From a virus, in IMG/VR virus record IMGVR_UViG_3300037264_000785, positions 1 through 41,015 of that record: a DNA stretch of 41,015 bases; one strand, written 5' to 3'. Of the stretch, positions 14,662-38,776 are shown in pieces. The stretch's first letter is position 1. Every line of letters begins with the position of its first letter. The notes beneath the pieces are model-generated. The model saw only the letters and a program-made list of their open reading frames with translations. It was not told where the DNA came from and searched no databases. The position numbers and the translations under genes are program-made.

Positions 14662-15477
14662 TTACGCGGTCACGGTGTAATCGATCGAGAGCGCCCCCGC
14701 CCAAGGCGTCTCGGTGTCGATCTCTAAGATGAACGACCCAGCCAGCGCGCGCGTCATCAGTCGCCGATAATCCACTGCGTCATTCGATCCGACCACGTTT
14801 GCCGCTAGGCCCGAGGCCCACACGTTGATCTTTGATGTTGCGGCAACGGTCGCATCGACGACGGTAACGGACTGAGACACTTTCGCGGGATAGGCCACAT
14901 TGACGACGGTGCGCGTAACCGCTCCGCCGCCGCCGCCCGCTGGCCCCGGTGGCCCTTGTGCGCCGGGGAAGCCGTCAAACCCGTTCTCTCCGTCTACCCC
15001 GTCCAGACCCGGCCACCCGGCCGCGCCAGAGCCTCCAGGAGCCCCGTTTGAACCCGCCGGGCCTGCTGGCCCCATCGCGCCGGGGAAGCCGTCAAAGCCG
15101 TCCTGGCCGGGTTCGCCGTCTTGACCGGGTAAGCCGAGGCCACCAGGAAGCCCAGCCGCGCCCGTGCCGGGAGGGCCAGCCGGGCCCGTCGCGCCGGGAA
15201 AGCCGTCGAGCCCATCCTCGCCATCCTGACCATCGGTAGGCACCCATATGCCGCCTGAGCCGCCTCCGCCAGAACCCGGCGGCCCGGTGGGGCCGGGCGG
15301 GCCAACGGGACCGATGTCGCCCGGTGCCCCGTCGAAGCCGTCCGCGCCGTCCTGCCCGTCCGAGCCGGGGAACGCCATCGGCCCGATGCCGCTGCCCACC
15401 TGATCGATGACCGGCATCCCGTCTTGTTGGCGGAACGGGGTGCGGGCCGTGACGGTGAGGCGTTTATTGCGCGGCAT
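14662..15477 (-). CDS. Collagen-like virion protein
   Basis: 271 residues from an ATG overlapping the stop of the 1348-residue tail protein (TGATG, with GAGG six bases upstream); an in-frame ATG at 15495 would add six residues. Residues 1-37 are a short N-terminal anchor. About 38-185 is a Gly-X-Y collagen-like region, and about 186-271 is a beta-rich C-terminal domain that could nucleate trimer formation. Collagen-like triple helices are used in phage tail fibres as stiff stalks. Adjacency to the adhesin/tubular fusion suggests a fibre or fibre linker. It could instead be a head fibre. Confidence 0.8.
   Translation of the reverse strand: MPRNKRLTVTARTPFRQQDGMPVIDQVGSGIGPMAFPGSDGQDGADGFDGAPGDIGPVGPPGPTGPPGSGGGGSGGIWVPTDGQDGEDGLDGFPGATGPAGPPGTGAAGLPGGLGLPGQDGEPGQDGFDGFPGAMGPAGPAGSNGAPGGSGAAGWPGLDGVDGENGFDGFPGAQGPPGPAGGGGGAVTRTVVNVAYPAKVSQSVTVVDATVAATSKINVWASGLAANVVGSNDAVDYRRLMTRALAGSFILEIDTETPWAGALSIDYTVTA
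14923..15366 (-). repeat. Four-module collagen-like repeat region
   Basis: Within the collagen-like gene the pattern D-G-x-D-G-x-x-G-[FL]-D-G-[FA]-P-G-A-x-G-P-x-G recurs about four times (protein residues about 40, 82, 120 and 159), separated by looser Gly-X-Y stretches and one Gly/Ser-rich break (residues about 68-81). The DNA copies are similar but not identical, consistent with an old internal duplication that can still change copy number by recombination. Confidence 0.8.
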
Positions 15478-18400
15478 CAGCGGCCTCGAATCCATTCCGC
15501 GTCAGGCGGGTCTTCCGGCTCGGCCTCGTTGGCGTCCTGCACCCGCGCCCGCTCGAGCACGACCTGATACATCGCTTGGGCGTAGCGCGTTGCCTGCGCC
15601 CGCATCCCGGCCTGGTTCGGCTTGTGGCTCACCCGCTGCCGGGGGTCCGTGGGCGACTCAGGCCCGCGCCCGCGCTGTTCTGCCACGGCCGGGTCGATTT
15701 GCGCCAGCGAGGGCGCCAGCGCCGCCGCCAGCCGCCAGGCGAGGGCATCCCGGAACAGGTCGTCGCCCTTCTGCACCGCGCAGTTGATCCGGGCGGTGTA
15801 TTCGAGGTTCGGATCGAGTTCGTCCGTGAACAGCAGGTCGCCGGTCGCGTCCGTCCCGACCTCCCACGGCGGCGGCGAGTCCTCAAACGCCCGGCCGGTG
15901 CCCGTGGCGACCAGTCGGCGGACCATCACGTAATCGGTCGGCAGCCGGTAGCTGTATTGCCAGTCCGGATTGACCGCCACGGTCGCCGTGCCGCCCACGG
16001 TCACGAGCGCGTCGTTATACCGCTTCGCAAACTTCCACGGGTAGTCTCGGAGCGTCGCGCGGATCTCATCGTCCAGGATGATGTTCGCCAGCACCGCCGG
16101 CGGGCTCTGATCGGTCGCGAGGTTCGCAATCGTCTGACAGCCGATCCGCAGCAGGCCACGATTCACGACTTGGATGTTCGCCGTGACACACGCCGCGGCC
16201 TCGTCACCCGCCAGCGGCACCGCCGTCCGCAGGCCCGGCACGCCCGGCTTGATGATCGCGTTGGCCTTGTCGATCGTCGCCTCGAACATCTTCGTGCAGC
16301 GTTCGGCCTCGCTCGTCATCCGCGTCAGGGGCGGGGCCAGCGCGGCGCTCAGGTGCCACTTCAGCGCCTCCGTGAACAGGGCGTCGCCGGTGAACGCGAC
16401 ACAGGCCGGCCGACAGGTGTATTCCAACACCGCCGCGGCTTCGTTCGTGAGGATCAACCCACCCGAGCCGTCACTCGACAGCATGAACGCCGGGGGTTCC
16501 GGATCTTTCGCCGTGCCGCGGACGACGACAATCCGCCGGGGAAAGATGCAATCTATCGGCTGCCGGTAACTGAACGCCCAATCGGCATGACTCGGCTGTG
16601 CCGCCACGAGCACTAAAGCGGCGTAACGTGTGGCGAACGGCCAAGGCGTCATAGTGAGCGTCGCCCGGACGGACGTCTCATACAGGAGTCGGGCGATGCG
16701 CGCCTCGCGGGTGCCCTGCGTGCAGTAATTGGTCAGCGTTTGCGAGACGCCGATCTCGAGCAGGGACAGGTTGACCTGCGCGGTCGTTTCCTCGATGCAG
16801 ACCGTGCCCGCCGCGCAATCGTCCGTATCACTCGGCGGGAGATCGCCCTCGCCCGGTCCGCCGTCGCCCGGGTCGACTTCTTCGTCGCCGATCGGGAAGG
16901 GTCCATCGAACGGCGACTCCGGCTCGATCGGCGTGAACTCACCGTCGCAGCTCCAGCCGTTGTTACAGGCGGCCGTCCCGCCCGGTAATACGAACCAGTC
17001 GTAGATGATGCCGGCCGCGTTCAACGTCACGCCGACTGTGAACGAATCGATCCCGCCGGCGGTGATCCCGGTCGTGGCGTTATTGACGCCGGACACCGGG
17101 CAGCTCGTCGTGCCGGTGTGCGAGGGGTCACGGACGATCGCCGCCGCGTTGTGCGGCACGACCATCACCCACAGCGGACGGACCAAGGTCGGGCCGAAGC
17201 CGATCGTGCGGGCGGCGACGCCGTCGCCGGTGTAGCTGCCCATCTGCACCGCTTTGGACCGCCCCGGATCGGCGCTGCCGTCCTCCCGTCGCCAGAGTGC
17301 AAACGCGGCATTGAGTTGTAGTGACAGCGTCGACGCAACCAAGGGCGAGAGTAACCCCGCGCTCCAGGTCAGGAAGTCGATCACTTCCGCCGCATTCAGC
17401 AGCGAGACCGTCGCGGCGGCGTGTCCGACGCCTTTGTAATACCCGCGGAACGTCGACCCGCCGTCCGGGGTTTCGTATTGGAAGAACCCGGCTTCCGGCG
17501 CGAAGGTTTCATTCGGCAGTAGGTCGACATTATCGAAGTCCTGCGCGCCATGCCCGAAGACGCCCGTCAGGAGGAACCGCCCCGCCGGATCGCTCACCGC
17601 GACGTATTCGTAGGTGATGGCGCTCTCGTTGACTTGGGCATCCGCGCCCGTGATGCGGACGATCGTGCGTTGCTCCTGATCATCCTCGACGGCCGCCGAG
17701 ACGAAACTCGGATCGATGAACGCCTGCACCGGCACGTCGGGCTGGACTTGCTCCTGCAAGCTCTGATGCGACGCGATCATCGACGAGAACCACAGCCCGA
17801 TCGGATGCGTCGAGATGCCCGTGCGCCGCGTGTAGAACCAATGCACCGGGCATCGGAACACGAGATCCTGCCCCGTGCCGTTGCCGACGTAGGTGCCAGA
17901 GTGGATGATGTAGGGCGAGGCGGGCGCCGCGATCAGCCGCGCCCACGGTGATTCGGGATACGGATTATTGTGCGCGCCCAGCGAGCGCCGCGGGATCGTC
18001 GTCGGCGTCGTCGCCCCGGGGAACACGTCCTCAGCGCCGAACGTGCCGACGACTTCCGCCACCGCGCCCAAGTGATAGACCGTGTCGCTGCTGGCGTTGT
18101 TGTCTTTTAGGTAACGCAACACCAGCGTCGTGAGTTTGGTCGGCAGGATGACGCCCGCCGGCATATACCAATGGTGCTCATGCGCGAGCCCGCTGATCGA
18201 CGGCAACACGACGAGGTCTTCCGCCGCCGTCCCGATCTTGAACCCGAGCGAGCTTTGACCTGCGGTGACGCCGTTGTGATAGACCCCGACCAACAGCGCA
18301 GCGATGCCGAGTGTATTCGGCTGCGCGTCCACCTTCAGCGCAACGTCCGTGTTCACCACGATCGGGGCGAGGGCGGTCGTGCTCACCATCCCCGTCACGG

Positions 18401-19523
18401 CGGATTCGGGGAGTTGGTTTAGGTTGCTATAGCTTTGGTTCGTCCAGTTGACCGCATCGTGCCCGGTCCCGAAGCTCGTCGCCGAGGCCCGGATGACCTT
18501 GGACCCATTCAACCAATCCAAGCCGACATACCGGAACGGGGAAGCACTTTCCTTGAGCGGTTCGGCCGCGCCGATCCAGTCATCAAAGTCCGCTTCGAGG
18601 TCGGTCACATCCGGCGACCCGAGAAGGGACTTCGTATACACGCCATTCGTGCCCAGCCCGGCCGCCGTGAATGAGCTGTGTGACGCGATCAGGGTGCCGT
18701 TTTTGTAGACCTTCACGAACGCCCCGACGCCTCCGCCGGCCGTCGCATAGGAGAGCACCACGTCGATGCGCGCCCACACGCCGGCGACGAGAATGGCCGA
18801 GGAGGTGGTTTTGATCGTGGGCACGCCGGAGGCGATATCCGACACGACGATATTGAGCCCTGGCGTCAGCGCCAGCTCGATCCCATCCTGCCCGGCGCCG
18901 CCGTTCGACCGCCAGATTTTCGCGTTCGCCGCGGGCACTTTCCGCACGCGGATGTAGAACCGATCCCAATGCGCGTGTGACGTGCTGCTGCTGAACTGTG
19001 AGACTTGATGTGAGATCGTCAGGGAGTCGCCGCGGAACGCGAAGCCCATCCCGTCCGGATGTCGGGAAGCGTCCCTGGTCAGGCACCGCCGTGCGGTGGT
19101 GCTGATGCCGCCTTCGCCCTCCTCCGGAATCTCGAAGCCGTCAACCCACTGCCGCTGTGCCATCGCGACGACCTGCACGGCGACGCCGTTGATCATCGCG
19201 ACCGTGCCCTCGCCAAACACGAACTTGCCGACCCATATGAAGGTGGTTGTGGTGGCGAAGATCGGCAACCCGAACCAGCCGCCGCTTTTGCGCGTGAACG
19301 TCGCTTCGGTCTGTGGGTAATTCGCCGAGGTCCAGAACCAGGGCGAGCGCGTGCAGGGCGCGACAAACGACGCGAGGTTCCCGAGAATCGGCGCGGCATA
19401 CGTGACCGCCGCCTCCGCCGGCGCGACGCGCACCCCGAAGGGAAACGCGGCTTGATGCGCCGTCACCGCCGCCCGATCAGTCAGGTGGATGGTGTATTCG
19501 AGATACTTCGTTTTGGTCGCCAT
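15477..19523 (-). CDS. Fusion of adhesin-like region with two tandem tail tubular A (T7 gp11-like) domains
   Basis: 1348 residues. Residues 1 to about 870 are beta-rich and fibre-like, including a LamG/concanavalin-like stretch (about 190-320, e.g. GVGAFVKVYKNGTLIASHSS). Residues about 875-915 form an acidic Pro/Gly linker bordered by cysteine pairs. From about 915 there are two homologous tail-tubular-A-type domains (about 915-1105 and 1120-1348). Both contain RATLxxxPWxFAxRY, WxFSYRxPxD followed by a conserved RR, a Leu-Glu-Tyr-Thr strand, and GDxLFxxALxWxLxAALAPxL. In podoviruses the tubular A protein forms the gatekeeper ring between portal and nozzle and carries fibre attachment sites. 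Fusion to a binding-type N-terminus is unusual. No candidate start lies near the domain boundaries, and the frame is continuous. Confidence 0.8.
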   Translation of the reverse strand: MATKTKYLEYTIHLTDRAAVTAHQAAFPFGVRVAPAEAAVTYAAPILGNLASFVAPCTRSPWFWTSANYPQTEATFTRKSGGWFGLPIFATTTTFIWVGKFVFGEGTVAMINGVAVQVVAMAQRQWVDGFEIPEEGEGGISTTARRCLTRDASRHPDGMGFAFRGDSLTISHQVSQFSSSTSHAHWDRFYIRVRKVPAANAKIWRSNGGAGQDGIELALTPGLNIVVSDIASGVPTIKTTSSAILVAGVWARIDVVLSYATAGGGVGAFVKVYKNGTLIASHSSFTAAGLGTNGVYTKSLLGSPDVTDLEADFDDWIGAAEPLKESASPFRYVGLDWLNGSKVIRASATSFGTGHDAVNWTNQSYSNLNQLPESAVTGMVSTTALAPIVVNTDVALKVDAQPNTLGIAALLVGVYHNGVTAGQSSLGFKIGTAAEDLVVLPSISGLAHEHHWYMPAGVILPTKLTTLVLRYLKDNNASSDTVYHLGAVAEVVGTFGAEDVFPGATTPTTIPRRSLGAHNNPYPESPWARLIAAPASPYIIHSGTYVGNGTGQDLVFRCPVHWFYTRRTGISTHPIGLWFSSMIASHQSLQEQVQPDVPVQAFIDPSFVSAAVEDDQEQRTIVRITGADAQVNESAITYEYVAVSDPAGRFLLTGVFGHGAQDFDNVDLLPNETFAPEAGFFQYETPDGGSTFRGYYKGVGHAAATVSLLNAAEVIDFLTWSAGLLSPLVASTLSLQLNAAFALWRREDGSADPGRSKAVQMGSYTGDGVAARTIGFGPTLVRPLWVMVVPHNAAAIVRDPSHTGTTSCPVSGVNNATTGITAGGIDSFTVGVTLNAAGIIYDWFVLPGGTAACNNGWSCDGEFTPIEPESPFDGPFPIGDEEVDPGDGGPGEGDLPPSDTDDCAAGTVCIEETTAQVNLSLLEIGVSQTLTNYCTQGTREARIARLLYETSVRATLTMTPWPFATRYAALVLVAAQPSHADWAFSYRQPIDCIFPRRIVVVRGTAKDPEPPAFMLSSDGSGGLILTNEAAAVLEYTCRPACVAFTGDALFTEALKWHLSAALAPPLTRMTSEAERCTKMFEATIDKANAIIKPGVPGLRTAVPLAGDEAAACVTANIQVVNRGLLRIGCQTIANLATDQSPPAVLANIILDDEIRATLRDYPWKFAKRYNDALVTVGGTATVAVNPDWQYSYRLPTDYVMVRRLVATGTGRAFEDSPPPWEVGTDATGDLLFTDELDPNLEYTARINCAVQKGDDLFRDALAWRLAAALAPSLAQIDPAVAEQRGRGPESPTDPRQRVSHKPNQAGMRAQATRYAQAMYQVVLERARVQDANEAEPEDPPDAEWIRGR

Positions 19524-20393: not shown

Positions 20394-20822
20394 CTAGACC
20401 GCGTAGTTGCGGGCGTAGTATTCAGACGCGATCGAGAACAGATCGTGCGCCGTCAGCCAGGCGGTCGCCGAAATGGTCCCGCCGGCCGTGGTGAGCCGGA
20501 CCCCGAGATACCGCTGCGTCGGCGTGCCCATCGGGAGCGGCACGAAGAACAGCGCGCCGACCACCGTCTCCGCCAGCGGAATCGACCGCGAGGCGTGGAC
20601 GAGGATGCCGGCGGTCAACGCGGCGTCGGTCGCCGAGATGACCTCGATCAACGTGGCGGCGACGGTGCCGGCGGTCGTGACGGCAATGCCGAACCCCATC
20701 GGTTCGCCGGTGCCGATCTTCCGCTTGGGCGTGACGTTGCCGAGATCGATGGAGTCCGTCGAGACGGCGGCGGCTCCGAACGCCTGCGCGTTTGACACAC
20801 GCAGGAAAGCATCGAGATACAT
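20394..20822 (-). CDS. Capsid cement (decoration) protein, Bbp16 family
   Basis: 142 residues. The opening YLDAFLRVSNAQAF followed by STDSIDLG, GTGEPMGFGIAV and QRYLGVRL is the pattern of the BPP-1 Bbp16-type cement proteins, which clamp capsid hexamers from outside. It is directly downstream of the capsid protein gene, as in that phage group. Family length (about 120-145 residues) agrees. SD-like AGGGACAG precedes the ATG. Confidence 0.85.
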   Translation of the reverse strand: MYLDAFLRVSNAQAFGAAAVSTDSIDLGNVTPKRKIGTGEPMGFGIAVTTAGTVAATLIEVISATDAALTAGILVHASRSIPLAETVVGALFFVPLPMGTPTQRYLGVRLTTAGGTISATAWLTAHDLFSIASEYYARNYAV

Positions 20823-20849: not shown

Positions 20850-21989
20850 TTAGACGACCCGCGCTTCCGTGTTGAGTAAGGCGTCGACGCGCCGCACCGG
20901 CACGCCGCCGAAGTCCATCACCCGCTTGCCCTCGAGGTTCGCGAAGGTGAGGCCGCCGCCGGAGGTCACGTCCGCCCGCTCCTGCTTGCGGAGGTAGCGC
21001 GCGACCGTGCGGTTCATGTAGAACACCGGCCGCCCGAGGCTGTTCGGCAGCATCTCGAGCGCCTGCTCCATCAGATCGATCAGGTCGGCCGCGCCGCCGC
21101 CGGCGAGGTTCGAGATGTCGATGTTGGCGATCCGGATGACATAGCGCCAGTCCGCGAGCTGAATGCCCGCGTTCCAGACCCAGCGTTCCTGCAACGCACG
21201 CATCCGCGTGCCCGCGACGCCGGCCGTGACCTGGATGGTCTGCTCGCCGTAGTCGTCATGTTGCAGGCCGGCCTGCGAGCCCTTCGGGAAGATCCCGCTG
21301 ACCGTCTCCGGGCTCCATGCCACGAGCCAGATGCTCGAGTTGTCCGCGGCATCCACGCCGCCCGCGTCCAGGATGTTGCCGCCGTTGCCAGCCGACAGCA
21401 GGGAGTAGCGCGGCGCGAGGCCGGTGAACTCCTCCGGCGCGATCCCGCCGTTGCCGTAGAACAGCGTTTGCGCCATTTCCTGATTCATCGCTTCGATGAA
21501 CGCCCGGGCCTCCGACAGCCGGAAGGCTGCGGTGTTGCCGTTCAGTTTGGCGAGGGCAACGTCGACCTCTGACCACGCTTCGAGGATGCCGCTCTGCTCG
21601 TCGATCTGCGCGGTCGTCGACTTGCTCGGCACCACGCCGGCGTTGATCAAGCGCCAGGCCACGGCTGGCAGGCCCGTCCGCATCGTCGTGCGGTGCCCGG
21701 TCGGCAGGTTGCCCTCGATCCATTGCATGTCGCTCAGCAGCTCGTTGCTTTGCGAGAGCAATTCGACAATGTCCGACACCTTGCCAGTCGGATCGAGCCG
21801 CTTCGCCCAATCCGCCAGGGTCAGCGCCCCCGTGCTCAGCGCCGCGCCGAACACGAGCACGTAGGTCGGATCGAAGTCGAACAGCGCCCGGAGATCCGGG
21901 CCGCGCACGACCTGTGAGACGGCGCCGACGTCCACGCTGAACAGCGCGACGCAGATCGCCGTGAGAACCATCACCGTGACAGCACGCAT
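20850..21989 (-). CDS. Major capsid protein with an N-terminal signal-peptide-like extension
   Basis: 379 residues. From residue about 55 onward the protein is a canonical podovirus (BPP-1/epsilon15-type, HK97-fold) coat protein: ALTLADWAKRLDPTGKVSDI, NLPTGHRTTMRTGLPAVAWR, SKSTTAQIDEQSGILEAWSE and a C-terminal FGGVPVRRVDALLNTEARV. The first 54 residues are extra. Residues 1-23 have a basic n-region (MR), a 17-residue hydrophobic core and a small-residue c-region (DVGA before VS), and 42-58 are again hydrophobic. A strong SD (GAGGAG, seven bases before the ATG at 21989) fixes this start, and no later ATG precedes the conserved domain. Related coat proteins normally begin shortly before the LADWAKR motif. 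In-frame GTG codons lie in the extension, but none has an obvious SD. Confidence 0.9.
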   Translation of the reverse strand: MRAVTVMVLTAICVALFSVDVGAVSQVVRGPDLRALFDFDPTYVLVFGAALSTGALTLADWAKRLDPTGKVSDIVELLSQSNELLSDMQWIEGNLPTGHRTTMRTGLPAVAWRLINAGVVPSKSTTAQIDEQSGILEAWSEVDVALAKLNGNTAAFRLSEARAFIEAMNQEMAQTLFYGNGGIAPEEFTGLAPRYSLLSAGNGGNILDAGGVDAADNSSIWLVAWSPETVSGIFPKGSQAGLQHDDYGEQTIQVTAGVAGTRMRALQERWVWNAGIQLADWRYVIRIANIDISNLAGGGAADLIDLMEQALEMLPNSLGRPVFYMNRTVARYLRKQERADVTSGGGLTFANLEGKRVMDFGGVPVRRVDALLNTEARVV

Positions 21990-22013
21990 AATTCCACTCC
22001 TCGACGGACGGAC

Positions 22014-22715
22014 CTACTTCATGTTGGGATACAGGCGCTTCGCGAGATCGGCATCGCGACCGCCCCCGCCCCCGCCCCCGCCTGCACCCGACACGGGCAC
22101 ATCCTCCGCCATCTTCTTGCCGAGATCCGCGAGGAAGCTCGCGATCTCGATGTGATTGCCATACCCGCTCTTGTCCAGGATGCGCTGAAACGCCGCGCGT
22201 CGTGGATGCCCTTCGGGTCGGACGGCATCGATCACGGTCTTGGCGAGCCGCTGGGTGTCCGCCAGCTTCGCCCCGCCGTAGTCCTGATCGGCCGTCAACT
22301 GTGCCGCGAGCGCCTCACTCTGTTCGATGAGGTAGGTGTTCTGCTGCTCGAGGAGCGCCTGCGCGGCGTCGTTCGGCAGCTTGTGCTCGCGCGCCATCTT
22401 CTCGATCGCCGCGACATCGGTCGCGTCAACCGCCCCGCCCTCGGGGAGGGTCAGCGCATATTTCTCCGGTGCGCCTTCCGCGCCTTTGTCGTCGTCCGCC
22501 TTGCCGCCCTTGGCGGCCTTGGACGCTTCATCGGCTGCTGCTTTGTCGGCCGCGATCTTGTCGGCCGCACTCTTGTCAGCGGCGACTTTATCGGCTGCGG
22601 CTTTGTCCGCAGTCGCCTTGTCGGCGGTGACTTTGTCGGCGGCAGCCTTGTCGGCTACCGTTTTATCTGCTGCGGCTTTGTCGGCCGCGGCTTTGTCTTC
22701 AACTTCGGTCGGCAT
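22014..22715 (-). CDS. Capsid scaffolding protein with AADK repeats
   Basis: 233 residues, highly charged and helical, directly upstream of the capsid gene, which is the usual place for a scaffold. Residues 6-63 consist of a five-residue repeat ending in Ala-Asp-Lys; 70-85 are acidic/Gly-rich; about 86-205 form the conserved-looking domain (YALTLPEGGAVDATDVAAIE, then helices); about 207-220 is a run of glycines; and the C-terminal AKRLYPNMK tail is typical of phage scaffolds whose end contacts the coat protein. Overlaps the preceding gene by 17 bases, with AGGAG about 12 bases upstream of the ATG. Confidence 0.85.
   Translation of the reverse strand: MPTEVEDKAAADKAAADKTVADKAAADKVTADKATADKAAADKVAADKSAADKIAADKAAADEASKAAKGGKADDDKGAEGAPEKYALTLPEGGAVDATDVAAIEKMAREHKLPNDAAQALLEQQNTYLIEQSEALAAQLTADQDYGGAKLADTQRLAKTVIDAVRPEGHPRRAAFQRILDKSGYGNHIEIASFLADLGKKMAEDVPVSGAGGGGGGGGRDADLAKRLYPNMK
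22521..22697 (-). repeat. 15-base coding minisatellite encoding about eleven Ala-Asp-Lys pentapeptides
   Basis: The 5' part of the scaffold gene repeats a 15-base unit encoding x-x-Ala-Asp-Lys (Ala-Asp-Glu in the last unit) in strict five-residue register from residue 11 to 63. Third codon positions and the two variable residues differ between copies, so it is a diverged tandem array. A continuous helix with a charge pattern repeating every five residues is expected. Confidence 0.85.
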
Positions 22716-23091: not shown

Positions 23092-24444
23092 CTAGCCTCC
23101 CAAGCAACTGACGCGGACGTTGGCGCCATCAACAAACGCCAGCGCGACCCCGGTGGTCCGGGTGTAGTTGGTGAAGGTCGCGGTGGTCGTAGTCGAGGCC
23201 GTCATCTCCATCGCGGCGGTCGCGGAGGTGGTGACGTTCATCGCGGTGCAGACCCAAGCGTTCGCGGCGGCTGGCAGCGTGAAGACCACCGTCGAGACAC
23301 CCGCACAAGTGGTGCCCATGTCGGCCTCGAAGGCGGCCGTGCCGTTGTTCCACACCATCGCCTCGCCGGTGCAAGAGTTGGCGACGGTGGGGGCCGTGAC
23401 TGAAATGGCGACGGATGTGCCGTTCACCTGATAGGCCGTACTGACTCCAAGCACCGACGCTCTGAGAATTGCGTTGTCGTTTTGAGCACGATTCCGAATA
23501 GTGACCGTGCCATCCACGGTGAAGTCGAGGCCGATGCCGACCGCATCGGCGTTGTTGGTTAAATTTAATTGTCCATTCGCCGGAGACTTTAATAAAGACC
23601 TGGCGGCATATTCTAAATAGGACGCCGACACAATTTGAACATGTGCCCCGCTGACTACTCCGGCAGCAAACGTCGCCAGCTTCGTCGAATCAATCGTGAG
23701 CGCCGTCGCCAGCGTCCCCGTCACCCCCGCGCCTGCCGCCGGAGAGGTCTGGAAGATGATCGAGCCGCCCGCTGAGGCTCCGCGATTCCGCCCGCCAGCA
23801 ATCGTCAGGTTCCCGCCCACCCCATCGGACGTGATCCGATCCGGGCCTTTGAACATCTGATCCGTGACGCCTGCGGCGTCTCCGCCCATTTGCAGGACGG
23901 CAGCGGCTTCGCGGGCGAGGAAGACATCAGACGCTGCCCCAATAGCCCCGCTTGACCATTCTAGTGTCGCAGCACTGCGTAACCGGATGCCGTCATCCAA
24001 CCGCACCGTCGCTGTTCCAGCAGCCGAATAATCAAGGCTCCCGTTATTAGACGGCCAGAAGAATCCAGTATCTGCGTCATTCGCAAAGCTAAATGAGGGA
24101 GCCCCAGCGGTCCCATTCGGTCCCAAGATCGGCACCGTGCTCGTCACCGCCGTCGTGGTGCCGCGCAGTTGCGCCACGCCGTTCGCGGAGAGGCACCACG
24201 CATTCGCCACGTCCGAGCCGAGGCCCGTCGTCGCGCTGCCGGTGAACGCATAGGCCGGATTCGCGCACGTCGAGCCTGGCCCCGTCAGTTGCCCCGTGAA
24301 CGGCCCGCCCGCGAACACGGGCGCCGTGACGCTTTTCCAATAGCCGATGCCGGTGGCCGTGCCTTGTGCGCGTGCAAACGTGGCCCAACACAGCAGCGCC
24401 GCGATGCCGAGCGCCAGTCTCCATCTATTGCGTGACGTGTTCAT
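23092..24444 (-). CDS. Secreted or fibre-like protein with a signal peptide, inserted in the head module
   Basis: 450 residues from the ATG two bases after the preceding stop. Residues 1-26 form a textbook Sec signal peptide (basic n-region NTSRNRWR, hydrophobic ALGIAALLCW, ATFARA before QG). The mature part is Gly/Thr/Ala-rich and beta-repetitive. Two related units occur (AYAFTGSATTGLG and SFSFANDADTGFF), followed by strand-rich repeats such as RLRSAATLEWSSGAIG and LTIDSTKLATFAAG, typical of tail fibres and head fibres. The C-terminus (about 360-450) holds three cysteine-bearing strands. The mature part has six visible cysteines, which fits an exported, disulfide-bonded protein. Base composition dips (AT-rich at 23560-23640). 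Whether it is a virion fibre or a cell-surface protein cannot be told from sequence. Confidence 0.75.
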   Translation of the reverse strand: MNTSRNRWRLALGIAALLCWATFARAQGTATGIGYWKSVTAPVFAGGPFTGQLTGPGSTCANPAYAFTGSATTGLGSDVANAWCLSANGVAQLRGTTTAVTSTVPILGPNGTAGAPSFSFANDADTGFFWPSNNGSLDYSAAGTATVRLDDGIRLRSAATLEWSSGAIGAASDVFLAREAAAVLQMGGDAAGVTDQMFKGPDRITSDGVGGNLTIAGGRNRGASAGGSIIFQTSPAAGAGVTGTLATALTIDSTKLATFAAGVVSGAHVQIVSASYLEYAARSLLKSPANGQLNLTNNADAVGIGLDFTVDGTVTIRNRAQNDNAILRASVLGVSTAYQVNGTSVAISVTAPTVANSCTGEAMVWNNGTAAFEADMGTTCAGVSTVVFTLPAAANAWVCTAMNVTTSATAAMEMTASTTTTATFTNYTRTTGVALAFVDGANVRVSCLGG

Positions 24445-24446
24445 GG

Positions 24447-24773
24447 TCAGGGCTCCCGATACATGCCTTCGGCGTAATCCACGCGCGCCGTCGCGGCGGC
24501 GACGATCCCGTAAATGATGTCGCGCGGAAACGGGCGCTGCGTCGTGCAATCCGCCGCGCCCAGCTCGAAGCCGTTGGCGGTCGTCACCCCGGCCGGCCCG
24601 AGGAACACCGAGACAGTATCCCGGTTGCAGATCAGCACGCTCCCGCCGCGCGGACCCGAGCGATAGATTTGCGTCGCCGTCACCGCCACCGTGACGCGCC
24701 CGGCGACGAATGCCGCATCACTCACCGTCACCAGCGCCAGCACGAACACGAGAGCCAACAGTAATCGAGTCAT
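24447..24773 (-). CDS. Small secreted beta protein with a signal peptide
   Basis: 108 residues from ATG at 24773; an in-frame GTG at 24776 is also possible. GGGGGAG directly precedes. Residues 1-21 are a signal peptide (TRLLLALVFVLALVTVSDA before AF). The mature domain (VTVTATQIYRSGP-like strands, then NRDTVSVFLGPAGVTTANGF) matches the small phage beta-sandwich proteins in which a VxLGxxGVTTANGFxL motif is common, but those are normally cytoplasmically made virion proteins without a leader. The mature part has two cysteines (CNRD, ADCTTQ). It lies between the portal gene and the secreted fibre-like gene. Confidence 0.7.
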   Translation of the reverse strand: MTRLLLALVFVLALVTVSDAAFVAGRVTVAVTATQIYRSGPRGGSVLICNRDTVSVFLGPAGVTTANGFELGAADCTTQRPFPRDIIYGIVAAATARVDYAEGMYREP

Positions 24774-30801: not shown

Positions 30802-30874
30802 GATGCCTCCAACTCCAGACTTCGTAACCCGGTCGCACCTTCGGGCTGTAGAGCACGAGGATGCAATCCTTCAT
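30779..30874 (-). CDS. Possible 31-residue microprotein
   Basis: A short frame begins at an ATG overlapping the methyltransferase stop (ATGA, 30871-30874) and encodes MKDCILVLYSPKVRPGYEVW plus 11 more residues, ending 22 bases inside the next gene. Its translation would couple the methyltransferase to the downstream gene. The overlap geometry matches neighbouring genuine genes, but length and lack of homology make it tentative. Confidence 0.35.
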   Translation of the reverse strand: MKDCILVLYSPKVRPGYEVWSWRHHGQATES

Positions 30875-32145
30875 ACGGCCTCCGTGAATAACGGCGCGAC
30901 CGATGCGATCCGGCGCTCCGCAATTTCGACGTATTCCGCTTCGCGTTCGATGCCGATAAATTGACGCTGCTCGTAGGCGCAGGCCATGCCGGTCGTGCCG
31001 CTGCCGGTGAAGGGATCGAGCACCGTGCCGTTGATCGGCGTCACGAGCCTCACCAGCCAGCGCATCAACTCGACTGGCTTCACGGTCGGATGGAAGTTGC
31101 CGCGAGGTTGCAGGCCACGGTTACGCGGGGTGTCGCCGCCTGGATTACCGTCTTTGCGGGAATCGTCGCGTTGCTTGTGTGGGAGGTCGTAGCAGCCCAT
31201 GTCGCGCTCTTCTCTGCTCGGTTTTGCTACGTAATAAAAGCGGGACGCACCACCAGAGTCACCGTAGACGTATCCTGGTTGCCCGATGCCGAATATAGAC
31301 TTCCCGCCTGAATCCATCGTCTTGGGCGTATTACAGCCGAGTAAATCTCCGGTCTGCTCATCCAGTGCGGTTGCGGCATCTTCATCAAGGAGGACGTTGG
31401 CAGGCCAGCGGCCGAGCGTTTCGGCTTTCTCTACGTTTGCCCTGATCTTCGCCGCATGGGTCGCACGAGCAGAGTCGTCATGCTTCCAAGGCCGATCCCA
31501 CCCTTCGTGCCCTTCTCGACCGATAGTGTCAGCCTTTTCGGCACCACCGCCAAGCGGATCATCGGTTACGATTCGGCAGGCGTCGATATTCAGGGCTCCC
31601 GTAGAATGCCGCAGGACGTTCGCGGCAACCGTGCCGGCAGTCGGCTTGCGGGCGAGCACGATAGGCTCCCACGCTGGCTTCAGGGCCGTTCCTTGCCCGT
31701 TGCCTACGTTGAGCGACTTTGGGAAACCGGAGCCATACAGCCACGACAGACAATCTCGAATCTCAAATCCGGCGTCTTCGATCCCGGCTGTCAGCCGGTG
31801 ATACATCCGCGTCCCGCCGAACGCGACAAGATGCGCGCCGGGCTTCAGCACGCGGAAGACTTCCCGCGCCCATTGTTCGGCTTCGGCCTGCATCGCTTGC
31901 GCGTCCCGGTTCTGCCGCTTCTGGAAGTCCGCGCAGGACCGTTGCCGACCGCCTTGCCTGGATGCGCCAGTGTTTACCGCGTCAGTTTCGACACGCCGTC
32001 GCATCGGGAACGCGCCGATGCCACCGGGCACGTCCCAATCCTTCGCCATGAATCCAAGACCGTAGGGCGGATCGGTCACGCAGGCATCAACTGACTCGTC
32101 GGCGAGTGTTGGCAGCACGTCGAACAGATCGCCGCAATGGAGCAT
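30871..32145 (-). CDS. DNA methyltransferase, beta class (N6-adenine or N4-cytosine)
   Basis: 424 residues. Motif IV DPPYGL (Asp 25) comes first, the VLKPGAHLVAFGG strand (about residues 95-110) follows, and motif I/X lies at the end (HPTVKPVELMRWL, DPFTGSGTTG at 377-386, QFIGIE). This circular order is that of beta-class amino-methyltransferases. The roughly 200-residue middle (IRDCLSWLYGSGFPKSLNVG, RWPANVLLDED) is a target-recognition region shared by many phage solo methylases. No restriction enzyme gene lies beside it, so protection against host restriction or a regulatory role is more likely than a complete R-M system. Starts two bases after the preceding stop. Confidence 0.9.
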   Translation of the reverse strand: MLHCGDLFDVLPTLADESVDACVTDPPYGLGFMAKDWDVPGGIGAFPMRRRVETDAVNTGASRQGGRQRSCADFQKRQNRDAQAMQAEAEQWAREVFRVLKPGAHLVAFGGTRMYHRLTAGIEDAGFEIRDCLSWLYGSGFPKSLNVGNGQGTALKPAWEPIVLARKPTAGTVAANVLRHSTGALNIDACRIVTDDPLGGGAEKADTIGREGHEGWDRPWKHDDSARATHAAKIRANVEKAETLGRWPANVLLDEDAATALDEQTGDLLGCNTPKTMDSGGKSIFGIGQPGYVYGDSGGASRFYYVAKPSREERDMGCYDLPHKQRDDSRKDGNPGGDTPRNRGLQPRGNFHPTVKPVELMRWLVRLVTPINGTVLDPFTGSGTTGMACAYEQRQFIGIEREAEYVEIAERRIASVAPLFTEAV

Positions 32146-33663: not shown

Positions 33664-35050
33664 TCAACGTCGGCGGTGTCACTTTAGTCGGCTTCTCTTT
33701 TGCCTTCGCGGGCTCCGGTTCCGGCTCGTTCGGCGCGTCAGAGAACAGGACGATATCCCTATCAAGCGTCAGCTTCAGCGTCCCGGTCGGGCCGTTGCGT
33801 TCCTTCTCGATGATGAAATACGTCAGCCCGCCCTCGCGGTGATTCTTCCGGTGCAGGAACGCAACGACGTCGGCATCCTGCTCGAGAGCGCCCGACTCGC
33901 GCAGGTCCGACAGCTTCGGCCGCGGGTCCGGCCGCTTGTCTGAGGCGCGGTTCATTTGCGACAGCAGGATGATCGGCACGCTCAGCTCGTCGGCCAGGTG
34001 CTTGAGCCGCCGGCTGATGTCCGTCATTTCATCGTTGCGGCTGGCGCCGTGGCGATCGAGCGTGCCCGGCATGAGTTGCGCGTAGTCGACGACGACCTCG
34101 TCGAGCCCGTCCTCGGCCTTGAGCCGCCGGCACGCGCTCCGGATGTCCCAAGCCGTCCGGCCGGCCGTGTCGTCAATCCACAGCGGCAGGTCGAACATGA
34201 TCTCTTGCGCCGCGGCGATCGCGGCGTAGTCGCTGCCGCCGATCTCCCCGGCGCGAATCCGCACCATCGGCACGTTCGCCAGGCTCGACAGGATGCGCCA
34301 TTCCAGTTGGCGCCGCCGCATCTCAAGACTGAACATCGCGACCCGCTTGCCGGCGCGGCACGCCGCGACGATTGAGTTCATCACGAACGTCGTCTTGCCG
34401 ATCGACGGCCTAGCCGCGATGACGATCAGGTCGCCCTTCTGCCAGCCCGCGGTGTGCCGGTCGACGGACTCGAAGCCCGTCGTGATGCCCGTCAGCTCGC
34501 CGCGGTGCTTGACCCGCCATTCCAGATCCGCCGTGAGCGCCGGCAGGCCGGTGCCGAGCCCGACCATCCGGCCATCGACGTGCCCGTGTTGCAGCTCGAA
34601 AAATTGCTCCTCGGCCGAGCGGAGGATCTCCGCCGGCGGTTGATCGGCTTCGTAGGCTTGCCCGAGCACTTTGTTCGCGGTGAAGATCAGCGACCGCAGC
34701 AGCGCCTTCTCGCGCACGACCGCCGCATAGGCCGCGATGTTGACGCCGCGGGGCACCCCGTCGACCAGACTCGCCACGTAGGCCGGCCCGCCGACCTCGT
34801 CGAGATCGCCATCCTGTTCGAGCCGTTCCTTGAGCGTGACCAAGTCGACGACCTGGTTCACGTCGAGCATCGCGACGATCGCCTTGAACATCCGCCGGTG
34901 CGAGTCGCGAAAGAACGCCCCAGCGGTCAGCGTCTCTGCGATCGAATGAAACGCGGTATTGTCGATCAGGATCGCCCCAAGCACGGAACGCTCCGCTTCA
35001 AGGTTCGAGGGCAGCGTCCGGGTCGGTTCCTCTGACTTGCCGCGCGTCAT
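33650..35050 (-). CDS. dnaB: Replicative DNA helicase, DnaB family
   Basis: 466 residues. The N-terminal primase-interacting domain (about 10-120: NLEAERSVLGAILIDNTAFH, DLVTLKERLEQDGDLDEVGG) is joined to a RecA-like motor domain. Motor motifs: Walker A ARPSIGKT (213-220), SLEM (241-244), Walker B VVDYAQ (320-325), and LSQMNR plus the SDLRESGALEQDAD arginine-finger/H4 region (381-394). The hexamer unwinds the fork 5' to 3'. The acidic/Pro-Lys C-terminus (about 440-466) is a short extension. A phage with its own DnaB but no visible polymerase is expected to use the host replisome. ATGA overlap with the upstream methyltransferase. Confidence 0.95.
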   Translation of the reverse strand: MTRGKSEEPTRTLPSNLEAERSVLGAILIDNTAFHSIAETLTAGAFFRDSHRRMFKAIVAMLDVNQVVDLVTLKERLEQDGDLDEVGGPAYVASLVDGVPRGVNIAAYAAVVREKALLRSLIFTANKVLGQAYEADQPPAEILRSAEEQFFELQHGHVDGRMVGLGTGLPALTADLEWRVKHRGELTGITTGFESVDRHTAGWQKGDLIVIAARPSIGKTTFVMNSIVAACRAGKRVAMFSLEMRRRQLEWRILSSLANVPMVRIRAGEIGGSDYAAIAAAQEIMFDLPLWIDDTAGRTAWDIRSACRRLKAEDGLDEVVVDYAQLMPGTLDRHGASRNDEMTDISRRLKHLADELSVPIILLSQMNRASDKRPDPRPKLSDLRESGALEQDADVVAFLHRKNHREGGLTYFIIEKERNGPTGTLKLTLDRDIVLFSDAPNEPEPEPAKAKEKPTKVTPPTLIDKS

Positions 35051-35676
35051 AGCGGTAACGCGCCTTGACTGAGACGCTCAGCCGCGAGTTCACAATACCG
35101 CTCGTTGATGTCGATGCCCACGGCGCGCTTCCCGAGACGCTTCGCGGCGACTAGTGTTGTCCCTGACCCCATGAACGGATCGAGCACCGTTCGCGCGTCA
35201 GCGGGCGCTTGTAGCAGCGACCAGCGCATCACGGCCTCTGGCTTCTGGGTTGGGTGCCCGACGCGTTCGGCGTTGGTAGCCCCGATAGACACCGAGATCA
35301 TCCGAGAGTTCTGATCCAAATTTGTCCATGCGTATTCGACGTTGCCCATTGATGGCGGCGCGTCCGGTTTGCACCAAGACAGCCAGCAGCGGGCGATTGG
35401 TAGATCGTAGTAATTGCCGCCGAAGATGATCTGGTGACGGCAGAGGCTCCTGCCGAGCGCCACACCTTCGGGCGCGGGTGTGCTGTCCCAATCTTCTGGA
35501 GCCTGCCCCTTGCGCCGTTGCCACTTCGTGGGCTGAGCAGCGAACCCGATACCGTAAGGTGGGTCGGTCAGCAACAGGTCGAACCCGGCTGATTCGTCTG
35601 GCGCGATACGTGCCAGCACGTCCCGGCAGTCGCCGTGGTAAATCGTGATCCCGTCCTGCTCGTAATAGGGCGTCAC
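35047..35676 (-). CDS. DNA methyltransferase, beta class, small
   Basis: 209 residues. DPPYGI at 38-41, then HPTQKPEAVMRW (about 141-152), and motif I DPFMGSGTT (166-174) followed by VGIDINERYCELAAERL. This short beta-class amino-methyltransferase without a large recognition domain is common in phages. It overlaps both neighbours by ATGA within the replication block, so it is made together with DnaB. It is clearly different from the larger methylase at 30871-32145, so the phage probably methylates two sequences. Confidence 0.9.
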   Translation of the reverse strand: MTPYYEQDGITIYHGDCRDVLARIAPDESAGFDLLLTDPPYGIGFAAQPTKWQRRKGQAPEDWDSTPAPEGVALGRSLCRHQIIFGGNYYDLPIARCWLSWCKPDAPPSMGNVEYAWTNLDQNSRMISVSIGATNAERVGHPTQKPEAVMRWSLLQAPADARTVLDPFMGSGTTLVAAKRLGKRAVGIDINERYCELAAERLSQGALPL

Positions 35677-36550: not shown

Positions 36551-36715
36551 TTATACGCCTGCCCGCCCCGCGAGATCAAGCGCAATCCACTTATCTAGCT
36601 TGACGTAACCGTGGCGATGTCGTCGACGGCGATACCAGACGCCTCCAAACATGGCGGCGTCCCAGCCGTTGGGCACCCAATACTCGACGCCATCAATCCA
36701 AAATGGGCTTGTCAT
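36551..36715 (-). CDS. Small 54-residue unknown protein
   Basis: Starts at an ATG overlapping the helicase stop (ATGA, 36712-36715) and encodes a Trp/Tyr/Arg-rich protein (MTSPFWIDGVEYWVPNGWDA, later RRRRHRHGYVKLDKW). Aromatic and basic content suggests nucleic-acid contact, and it faintly recalls the N-terminal strand region of phage HNH proteins, but no HNH residues follow. Ends before the structured gap. Confidence 0.55.
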   Translation of the reverse strand: MTSPFWIDGVEYWVPNGWDAAMFGGVWYRRRRHRHGYVKLDKWIALDLAGRAGV

Positions 36716-38580
36716 CGCTTCCTCCGTGATTGTGCGATGTCGATCAAATCAGAGGCCGCGCCCGCCGTGAGCCCCGGCTTGATCGCCACGCGCAGCCGGG
36801 CTAGCAGGCCGATCTGTTTCTCACTCGCCGGCCGCAGCCGCCACGGCGCATCGGCGCTCTTGAGTTTCATCACCGCCCGCCGCTCCTGTAAGACGAACGC
36901 CTCCGCCAGCCCCGCCGCCGCATCCGCACTCTCGATCTCCATCGCAATCGTGCGCTGCCGCACCGAGCCCCCGCCCTTCGGCCTGAACGTCAGGCTCACG
37001 CTGAAGCGATCGAGCAAGTCCCGCGCGACCTTCAGCAGCTCGAAGCCGTCGAGCCACGGATACTCGAGCCGATACTCGTCGAGCCCGCTCTTGATCCAGT
37101 TCAGCGCCCGCCCCGCACCGAACGCCCCCAGCTCCGGCACGTCCCACACGTCGAACGTCGACGCCCAGGCGTTGAGTTCTTCCATCGTCTTCCGGCCGGC
37201 GCCGTCGATGTTGAACCCCGGATGCGCCCGCAGGAACGCCTCGAGTTCGTTCTCGAGCGTCGCGAGATCCTTCCCGTTAGCCTTGATGCCAGGCGGCAGG
37301 CCGTAGAGCACCGGCGCTGTTTGCAGCGAGTGCCGTTTGGCAATGTCGACGAGGTCGATGACCACGCATTCCTTCTTGCCGGGATAGAGTCGCAGCCCGC
37401 GGCCGGTCATCTGTGTATACAGGGTCGTGCTCTTGGTCGGCTTCGCGTGCAGGATGCAGCCGGTGCGCGGCAGGTCCGTGCCCTCCGTGAAGATCATGCA
37501 GTTGCAGATCACGCGGACCCGGCCCGCCGTGTAGTCCGCGAGGATCTGCCGGCGTTCCTCTTTGTCGGTCTTCCCGCTCACCGCTCGCGCTTCGATGCCG
37601 ACGACCTGGAACGCCTCGGCGAGCGCGTGCGCGTGCGCGACATCGACGGTGAACGCGAGCGTCGATTGATCGCCGGCGTAGGTCGTCCAGGCTTCCACCG
37701 CGAGGGCGTTGCGGTGCGCGTTGTTCACGGCATCCGCCAGCTCGCGCTGATTGAAGTCGCCGCGGTTGGTCCCGACGTCGTCGAGCGTGCTCTTGGTTTC
37801 CACGACCCACGGCACAATCGGCACGAGCCACTGATCATCGATCGCCGCCTTGAGCCCATAGCTGTAGCAGAGGCTTTGAAACACGGCCCCAAGGCCGATC
37901 GCATCGCTCCGGTTCGGCGTCGCCGTCACGCCGACGAGCAGTTGATCCTTCGGCGCCCGTTCGTCCCAGGCCGCGAGGTTCTTCGCCATCTCGGCGGCGT
38001 CCGTCTCATTCGCCGCTTCGATCTCCTCGCTGTCGCTGGCATCCGCTGGCGGCAGGAACCCGAGATGCACGAGCGCCGTGCGATATGTCGGCGCCGCGGC
38101 ATGGTGCGCCTCGTCGATGATGACGATCCGGAACTTGCAGGTCCGCAGCAGCGCCTTCAGCCGCTTGAACTTCGACGCCTGTAAGGTCTGGATGCTCGCG
38201 ATGATGACGTCGCTGTAGCGGTTCGCGACCCGGTCGCCCTGCTCGATGCTGACCAGGATGCCGGGGTTCGCCCGCTGGATCTTGTCGGCGCTCTGATCAA
38301 GCAATTCCTCGCGGTGCGCGATCACGAGCATCTTCCGCTGACCTTCGGGGAACGTCTCGAGCCACTCGCGCATCGCCGGATGGCGCAGCAGCGCAGCGAA
38401 CGCGACCGTTTTTCCTAGGCCAGTTGACATCTGAAGGAGCAGCCGGTTTAGGCCACTCGCCCGAGCCTGGCAGATGGCGTCATTTGCCGCGTCCTGGTAG
38501 GGGCGGAGTTGAGGGGCTTGGGAGCCAGCCCCCACCCCGTTCGTCGCCCCAGGGCCGTCCGGTGCCTGCGTCAGCGCCAT
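36712..38580 (-). CDS. SF2 DEAH-type helicase
   Basis: 622 residues from the ATG at 38580, one base after the preceding stop, with GGGGG in front. Q-like region QLRPYQDAANDAI; motif I STGLGKT (52-58); motif Ia AHREELLDQ; motif II DEAH (156-159); motif III TAT (219-221); motif V MIFTEGTDLP (363-370); motif VI QMTGRGLR (390-397). The C-terminal part (about 430-622) contains helical domains and ends SEKQIGLLARLRV...RRKR, a tail often seen in phage relatives of RadD-type helicases. Likely roles are recombination or fork remodelling during phage replication. An acidic insertion (about 178-205, SDSEEIEAANETD) sits between motifs II and III. Confidence 0.92.
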   Translation of the reverse strand: MALTQAPDGPGATNGVGAGSQAPQLRPYQDAANDAICQARASGLNRLLLQMSTGLGKTVAFAALLRHPAMREWLETFPEGQRKMLVIAHREELLDQSADKIQRANPGILVSIEQGDRVANRYSDVIIASIQTLQASKFKRLKALLRTCKFRIVIIDEAHHAAAPTYRTALVHLGFLPPADASDSEEIEAANETDAAEMAKNLAAWDERAPKDQLLVGVTATPNRSDAIGLGAVFQSLCYSYGLKAAIDDQWLVPIVPWVVETKSTLDDVGTNRGDFNQRELADAVNNAHRNALAVEAWTTYAGDQSTLAFTVDVAHAHALAEAFQVVGIEARAVSGKTDKEERRQILADYTAGRVRVICNCMIFTEGTDLPRTGCILHAKPTKSTTLYTQMTGRGLRLYPGKKECVVIDLVDIAKRHSLQTAPVLYGLPPGIKANGKDLATLENELEAFLRAHPGFNIDGAGRKTMEELNAWASTFDVWDVPELGAFGAGRALNWIKSGLDEYRLEYPWLDGFELLKVARDLLDRFSVSLTFRPKGGGSVRQRTIAMEIESADAAAGLAEAFVLQERRAVMKLKSADAPWRLRPASEKQIGLLARLRVAIKPGLTAGAASDLIDIAQSRRKR

Positions 38581-38581
38581 C

Positions 38582-38776
38582 CTAACCCCCTTCCGCCCCG
38601 GCCCGGTCCAGCAGCACGCAGACGCAGGACTCCCACCGGACGGGCCGGAGAGCCTTCTGCGCCTCCCGTATCGCCCGGGAGGCACATGTGGCCGCGCTGG
38701 AGCCGGAAACGGTGCCTCTAGCCGTCTCCGGCGGGCGCTCGGCAAACTCGAACGTCACGACGTATTTGGCGGTCAT
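38582..38776 (-). CDS. Small unknown protein
   Basis: 64 residues from the ATG overlapping the upstream stop (ATGA, 38773-38776). A strand TAKYVVTFEFAE, a helix (SRAIREAQKALRP) and a strand (SCVCVLLDRAG) suggest a small alpha/beta fold of the type found in many phage accessory proteins. No family recognised. Confidence 0.55.
   Translation of the reverse strand: MTAKYVVTFEFAERPPETARGTVSGSSAATCASRAIREAQKALRPVRWESCVCVLLDRAGAEGG

Follow-up and report, generated by a model that had tools for sequence, protein, structure and literature searches.

The general view is that self-assembly of HK97-fold shells takes place in the cytoplasm. N-terminal coat segments that may be removed are familiar from the HK97 delta domain and the T4 gp23 propeptide; both of these resemble scaffolds and are cleaved by proteases of the phage, and neither is a hydrophobic signal peptide. 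The closest described systems for the coat protein considered here are BPP-1 Bbp17 and epsilon15 gp7 (PF20911, phrog_212), whose cultured family members begin at the coat domain, with no leader in the annotated records checked. In the BPP-1 virion the coat and cement proteins are uncleaved, and the N-terminal peptide of the coat protein runs radially outward and augments the sheet of the cement protein (PMC3863775). A tailed-phage head built on a membrane is described for T4, where proheads start on the inner membrane via the portal (PMC9958956); according to a 2011 review, prohead membrane association had not been shown for phages other than T4 (PMC3185693).

The window analysed here (41,015 nucleotides, the IMG/VR virus record IMGVR_UViG_3300037264_000785) encodes on its minus strand a 379-residue protein (20850–21989) that is unambiguously a BPP-1/epsilon15-type major capsid protein. 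PF20911 (GP7) matches residues 66–379 across profile positions 1–313 of 313 (E 2.7e-124), the protein falls into phrog_212 (major head protein), and the BPP-1 structure 3j4u aligns with residues 51–379 (E 1.8e-103). An AlphaFold2 model based on 90 sequences reaches a pLDDT of 84.5 and has 3j4u as its top Foldseek match (TM 0.70/0.81), while a shallower run with 26 sequences (pLDDT 54) was too poor for use. Profile, 3j4u and model matches together place the HK97-fold coat domain at residues 60–379 (20853–21812, minus strand). The window also has the scaffold–coat–cement gene order of BPP-1, with a Bbp16-family cement protein at 20394–20822 (minus strand; PF21190, E 3.4e-15) and, upstream of the coat gene, a probable Bbp18-like scaffold at 22014–22715 (minus strand; phrog_458, E 4.8e-28). 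The role of the latter is inferred from a product of low-complexity ADKAAADK repeats, and its PHROG is labelled "protease". An earlier note on this DNA, made from the sequence alone, had stated that no maturation protease is encoded; profile searches of the window gave no confirmed phage protease, but the statement holds only if this low-complexity protein is viewed as the scaffold.

Where the window departs from the cultured family members is at the N-terminus. Homology to the coat begins only at residue 51–66, so that about 54 extra residues precede the coat, in agreement with the start near residue 55 given in the earlier note. The strong GAGGAG ribosome-binding site that the note had placed seven bases from the ATG lies at 21997–22002 (minus strand). 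Its further remark that no later ATG precedes the coat needs a small correction, as there is a second ATG at codon 7, but this lies inside the signal segment described below and changes nothing.

Residues 1–23 (21921–21989, minus strand) form a signal-peptide-like segment with n-, h- and c-regions (R2; VMVLTAICVALF; predicted cleavage VGA|VS after residue 23), as the earlier note had proposed, and AlphaFold2 gives a helix for residues 2–17. By a simple rule of our own (a positive n-region, a 10-residue uncharged hydrophobic core and small residues at -3 and -1), the segment has the features of a Sec signal peptide of the SPase I type. Scans of IMG/VR contigs for homologues sharing the extension, a search that the note had suggested, yielded 37 distinct extensions that share the reading frame of the coat, at loci from many metagenomes and in uncultured phages of soil and sediment. 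The rule is passed by all 31 aligned extensions of the signal-peptide type, compared with 11% of composition-matched shuffles, and in 30/30 distinct extensions of this type the h-region leads into an [AVLIT]xA site (60% of shuffles). Ala at -1 is nearly invariant across alignment A1 and the flanking positions vary; the n-region is net positive in 36 of the 37 extensions. In five relatives (L246, L251, L182, L207 and L162) a first hydrophobic segment is followed by a loop of 6–13 residues and a second hydrophobic stretch, without a clear cleavage site, although the starts of L251 and L207 are less sure, having no obvious ribosome-binding site. These hairpin-type extensions appear to be independent and, since they keep both hydrophobic stretches without a clear site, suggest that membrane association, rather than cleavage, is what is conserved.

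Comparison of nine close pairs gave pN/pS values of 0.00–0.38 for the first 23 codons in eight pairs and 0.71 in one, against 0.22–1.26 for the linker and 0.05–0.27 for the coat; for the window and the two nearest relatives tested, the values are 0.30–0.38 for the signal segment and 0.5–1.26 for the linker. The low values in the first 23 codons indicate that the extension is translated and that selection acts mainly on its first segment. The extension recurs in many contigs, which rules out chance or an assembly artefact as its source, as do the pN/pS values of most pairs. The same data bear on the fallback offered in the earlier note, translation from an internal GTG with the leader as a remnant, and on the related possibility that the leader is an annotation artefact. 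The window does have GTG codons at positions 44 and 46, and short relatives begin near the same place with a ribosome-binding site of their own. However, neither GTG is conserved, a codon-by-codon check of the extended relatives found no conserved start codon inside the extension, and L012 has no ATG, GTG or TTG at all between its ATG and the coat. As the leader is mostly under purifying selection and the long start of nearly every extended relative has a ribosome-binding site, we regard a working coat made from an internal start as highly improbable.

A signal peptide on its own would present the phage with a problem, as the coat would be exported and packaging would come to a halt. The remainder of the extension, however, contains two further elements. 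Residues 24–42 (21864–21920, minus strand) are a short, net acidic and variable linker, and the corresponding loop has a net charge of 0 to -3 in 37/37 extensions (mean -1.3, measured from the end of the h-region). This is followed by a second hydrophobic stretch, not reported in the earlier note, at residues 43–59 (YVLVFGAALSTGALTLA; 21813–21863, minus strand), which overlaps the ancestral coat N-terminus and is followed by the AKR/GKR of the coat. Its mean Kyte–Doolittle (KD) value over 17 residues is 1.72 (M13 pVIII, 2.12); across relatives the 17-residue mean is 1.63 with a minimum of 1.04, and values of at least 1.4 are found in 86% of relatives vs. 0.2% of control windows within the coat. 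The layout of signal peptide, short acidic loop, hydrophobic stretch and basic cytoplasmic side is shared with the M13 pVIII procoat, for which the same measure gives an h-region, a 26-residue loop of -3, a TM segment and a +3 end. The likeness is one of layout: pVIII has no homology to the window coat and is a tiny helical coat extruded through the membrane, whereas the window coat forms the HK97-fold shell of a dsDNA-packaging tailed phage, unlike a filamentous virion, and is not a member of the inovirus procoats. The positive-inside rule is well established, and together with this layout it predicts an N-in/C-in topology that leaves the coat domain in the cytoplasm.

Taken together, we consider the first ~59 residues a candidate membrane-insertion module placed before an ordinary BPP-1-type coat. 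Guided by the signal peptide, the nascent coat would engage Sec/YidC of the host, its short acidic loop would pass into the periplasm, and the second hydrophobic stretch would halt transfer, so that the coat domain, from the positively charged AKR onwards, would stay cytoplasmic and tethered to the inner membrane. Signal peptidase I would probably cleave after Ala23. Procapsids could then be built by scaffold and portal at the membrane surface, with the tethers on the exterior of the shell. This is the side towards which the BPP-1 coat N-terminus points; because of that outward orientation the extension is expected to project outside the shell, which by analogy would be compatible with a membrane tether. 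We give a probability of roughly 50% to this reading, a membrane hairpin whose coat domain is cytoplasmic and heads that form on the inner membrane. We favour it because, of the possible topologies, only the one offered by the second stretch would leave the coat domain in the cytoplasm. Membrane insertion, its topology, cleavage and head assembly at the membrane are all inferred from comparative data, which the membrane-nucleated shells suggested in the earlier note fit better than the alternatives do. For the window phage the likeness to T4 (gp20/gp40) is likewise a proposal, and the means would differ: membrane contact in T4 is made by portal and chaperone, whereas here it would be made by a signal peptide on the coat.

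Against a membrane hairpin stands that the second stretch is only marginally hydrophobic, is partly the ancestral coat N-terminus, overlapping residues of the coat's own arm, and is modelled as coil. An alternative is that Sec never recognises the extension, which would instead be an arm on the outer shell that packs on or extends the cement beta sheet. Such an arm would agree with the BPP-1 coat N-terminus, which augments the cement sheet on the outside (PMC3863775), and with AlphaFold2, which models the second stretch as extended (coil at residues 38–57, mean pLDDT about 55–76). The coil probably says little about this stretch, given that the models are made without a membrane. An arm also leaves the n-region charge, the conserved Ala at -1 and the acidic loop unexplained, as well as the signal-peptide look of rapidly diverging sequences, and a very hydrophobic helix on the virion surface would be unfavourable. 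We therefore consider a purely structural arm unlikely.

The predicted cleavage site, which sets the window leader apart from the uncleaved BPP-1 coat, raises the possibility that host signal peptidase I is the maturation protease, with transient membrane insertion serving only to remove the leader and time assembly. This proposal of the earlier note gains from the canonical Ala -1 site in 30/30 distinct signal-peptide-type extensions and from the lack of a confirmed phage protease in the window. It accounts less well for the roughly five hairpin-type relatives, which keep the membrane helices without a clear site, and for the short-form relatives and BPP-1, which need no cleavage. As a complete explanation we find it rather doubtful, and somewhat more so than the structural arm; it overlaps with the membrane hairpin and may be part of it. 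True export of the coat to the periplasm, as a life-cycle step or as a secreted second product, has in its favour that further proteins with signal peptides and paired cysteines are encoded by these phages. But DNA and terminase are cytoplasmic, and a shell that packages DNA has to meet them there; the only cysteine of the coat sits inside the signal segment, and no second coat gene was found in the window. We regard export as quite improbable.

An important question is how the extension is distributed in the family. Nearly all other relatives begin with M-[A/T/S/P]-x-L-x-x-x-x-LTLADWAKR or a close variant, and the short forms each have a separate ribosome-binding site immediately behind the stop codon of the gene upstream. 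In the phage collection, 10 of the 11 cultured or isolated relatives are annotated with the short start, the eleventh (zth2-2) being a record without annotation, and the extension is absent from all 75 relatives in prokaryote genomes, which begin directly with the coat. Many close relatives also do without it (e.g. L169, L027 and L159), which the earlier note did not record; the extension is thus not essential for assembly in this family. In the extended forms the old start codon has been replaced, usually by Gly (...VFG-AALSTGALTL...). A separate signal-peptide ORF upstream of the coat was sought in 18 short-form relatives, and none was seen.

When the long and short forms are mapped on the coat tree, 17 changes are needed, of which supported branches force at least 10; a tree of the N-terminal half of the coat needs 12 (12–14 in bootstrap replicates), at least six of them forced. 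The two trees rule out a single origin of the extension, with 12–17 gains or losses. A caveat to these counts is the mosaic look of the coat genes, by which the module may be spread through recombination; similar signal sequences in distant coat branches suggest that it partly is. As a separate observation, two distinct types of C-terminal third, FLRKQER-like and FLDIQGR-like, occur among the coats of L010, L016, L021, L063 and L072, which suggests mosaic coat genes. The portal frame of L065 (G006) is broken by one internal TGA and gives split matches, and its coat contains a short stretch that looks frame-shifted; both possibly reflect sequencing errors.

A broader reading is that these phages have repeatedly acquired a switch by which an HK97-fold coat is made as a membrane-inserted preprotein, with icosahedral heads that form on the inner membrane and are later released from it. 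We advance this tentatively, at slightly less than even odds. As far as we could find, that route is known for filamentous phage coats and for no HK97-fold coat, and our search of the open-access literature, with most subscription journals outside its scope, brought up no paper describing a signal peptide on the coat of a tailed phage. A coat inserted as a signal-peptide hairpin would depart from cytoplasmic self-assembly, and close relatives with and without the extension provide natural pairs for asking what membrane assembly does for heads. It would also bear on capsid display and encapsulin engineering, where membrane-tethered HK97-fold shells could be useful.

The genes around the coat include others with signal peptides. 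Between the portal and coat genes lies a fibre-like protein (23092–24444, minus strand) with a signal peptide (MNTSRNRWRLALGIAALLCWATFARA|Q) and six cysteines in its mature part. The neighbouring gene at 24447–24773 (minus strand) encodes a small protein with its own signal peptide, two cysteines and a beta domain. In alignment A2 the two cysteines are invariant in six homologues, and a seventh, L262, is without them. A hydrophobic signal-like N-terminus on this small protein and an extended coat occur together in 7/7 phages, the window included, and more distant relatives of the beta domain, in other phages, have no signal peptide. The idea that virion-like genes with signal peptides are found only beside an extended coat was refuted, as the short-form G011 and G012 carry exported small proteins; only the small protein at 24447–24773 tracked the extended coat. 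Because short-form relatives also have signal-peptide genes, the association of such neighbours with the extended coat is supportive, not decisive.

Several other genes in the window deserve mention. In a 1348-residue ORF at 15477–19523 (minus strand), a long fibre-like region precedes two stretches near the C-terminus that both match phrog_394 (tail protein; E 2e-54), apparently a duplicated tail domain fused to a fibre. Two N6/N4 DNA methylase genes are present at 30871–32145 and 35047–35676 (minus strand), and a ResIII-type helicase is encoded at 36712–38745.
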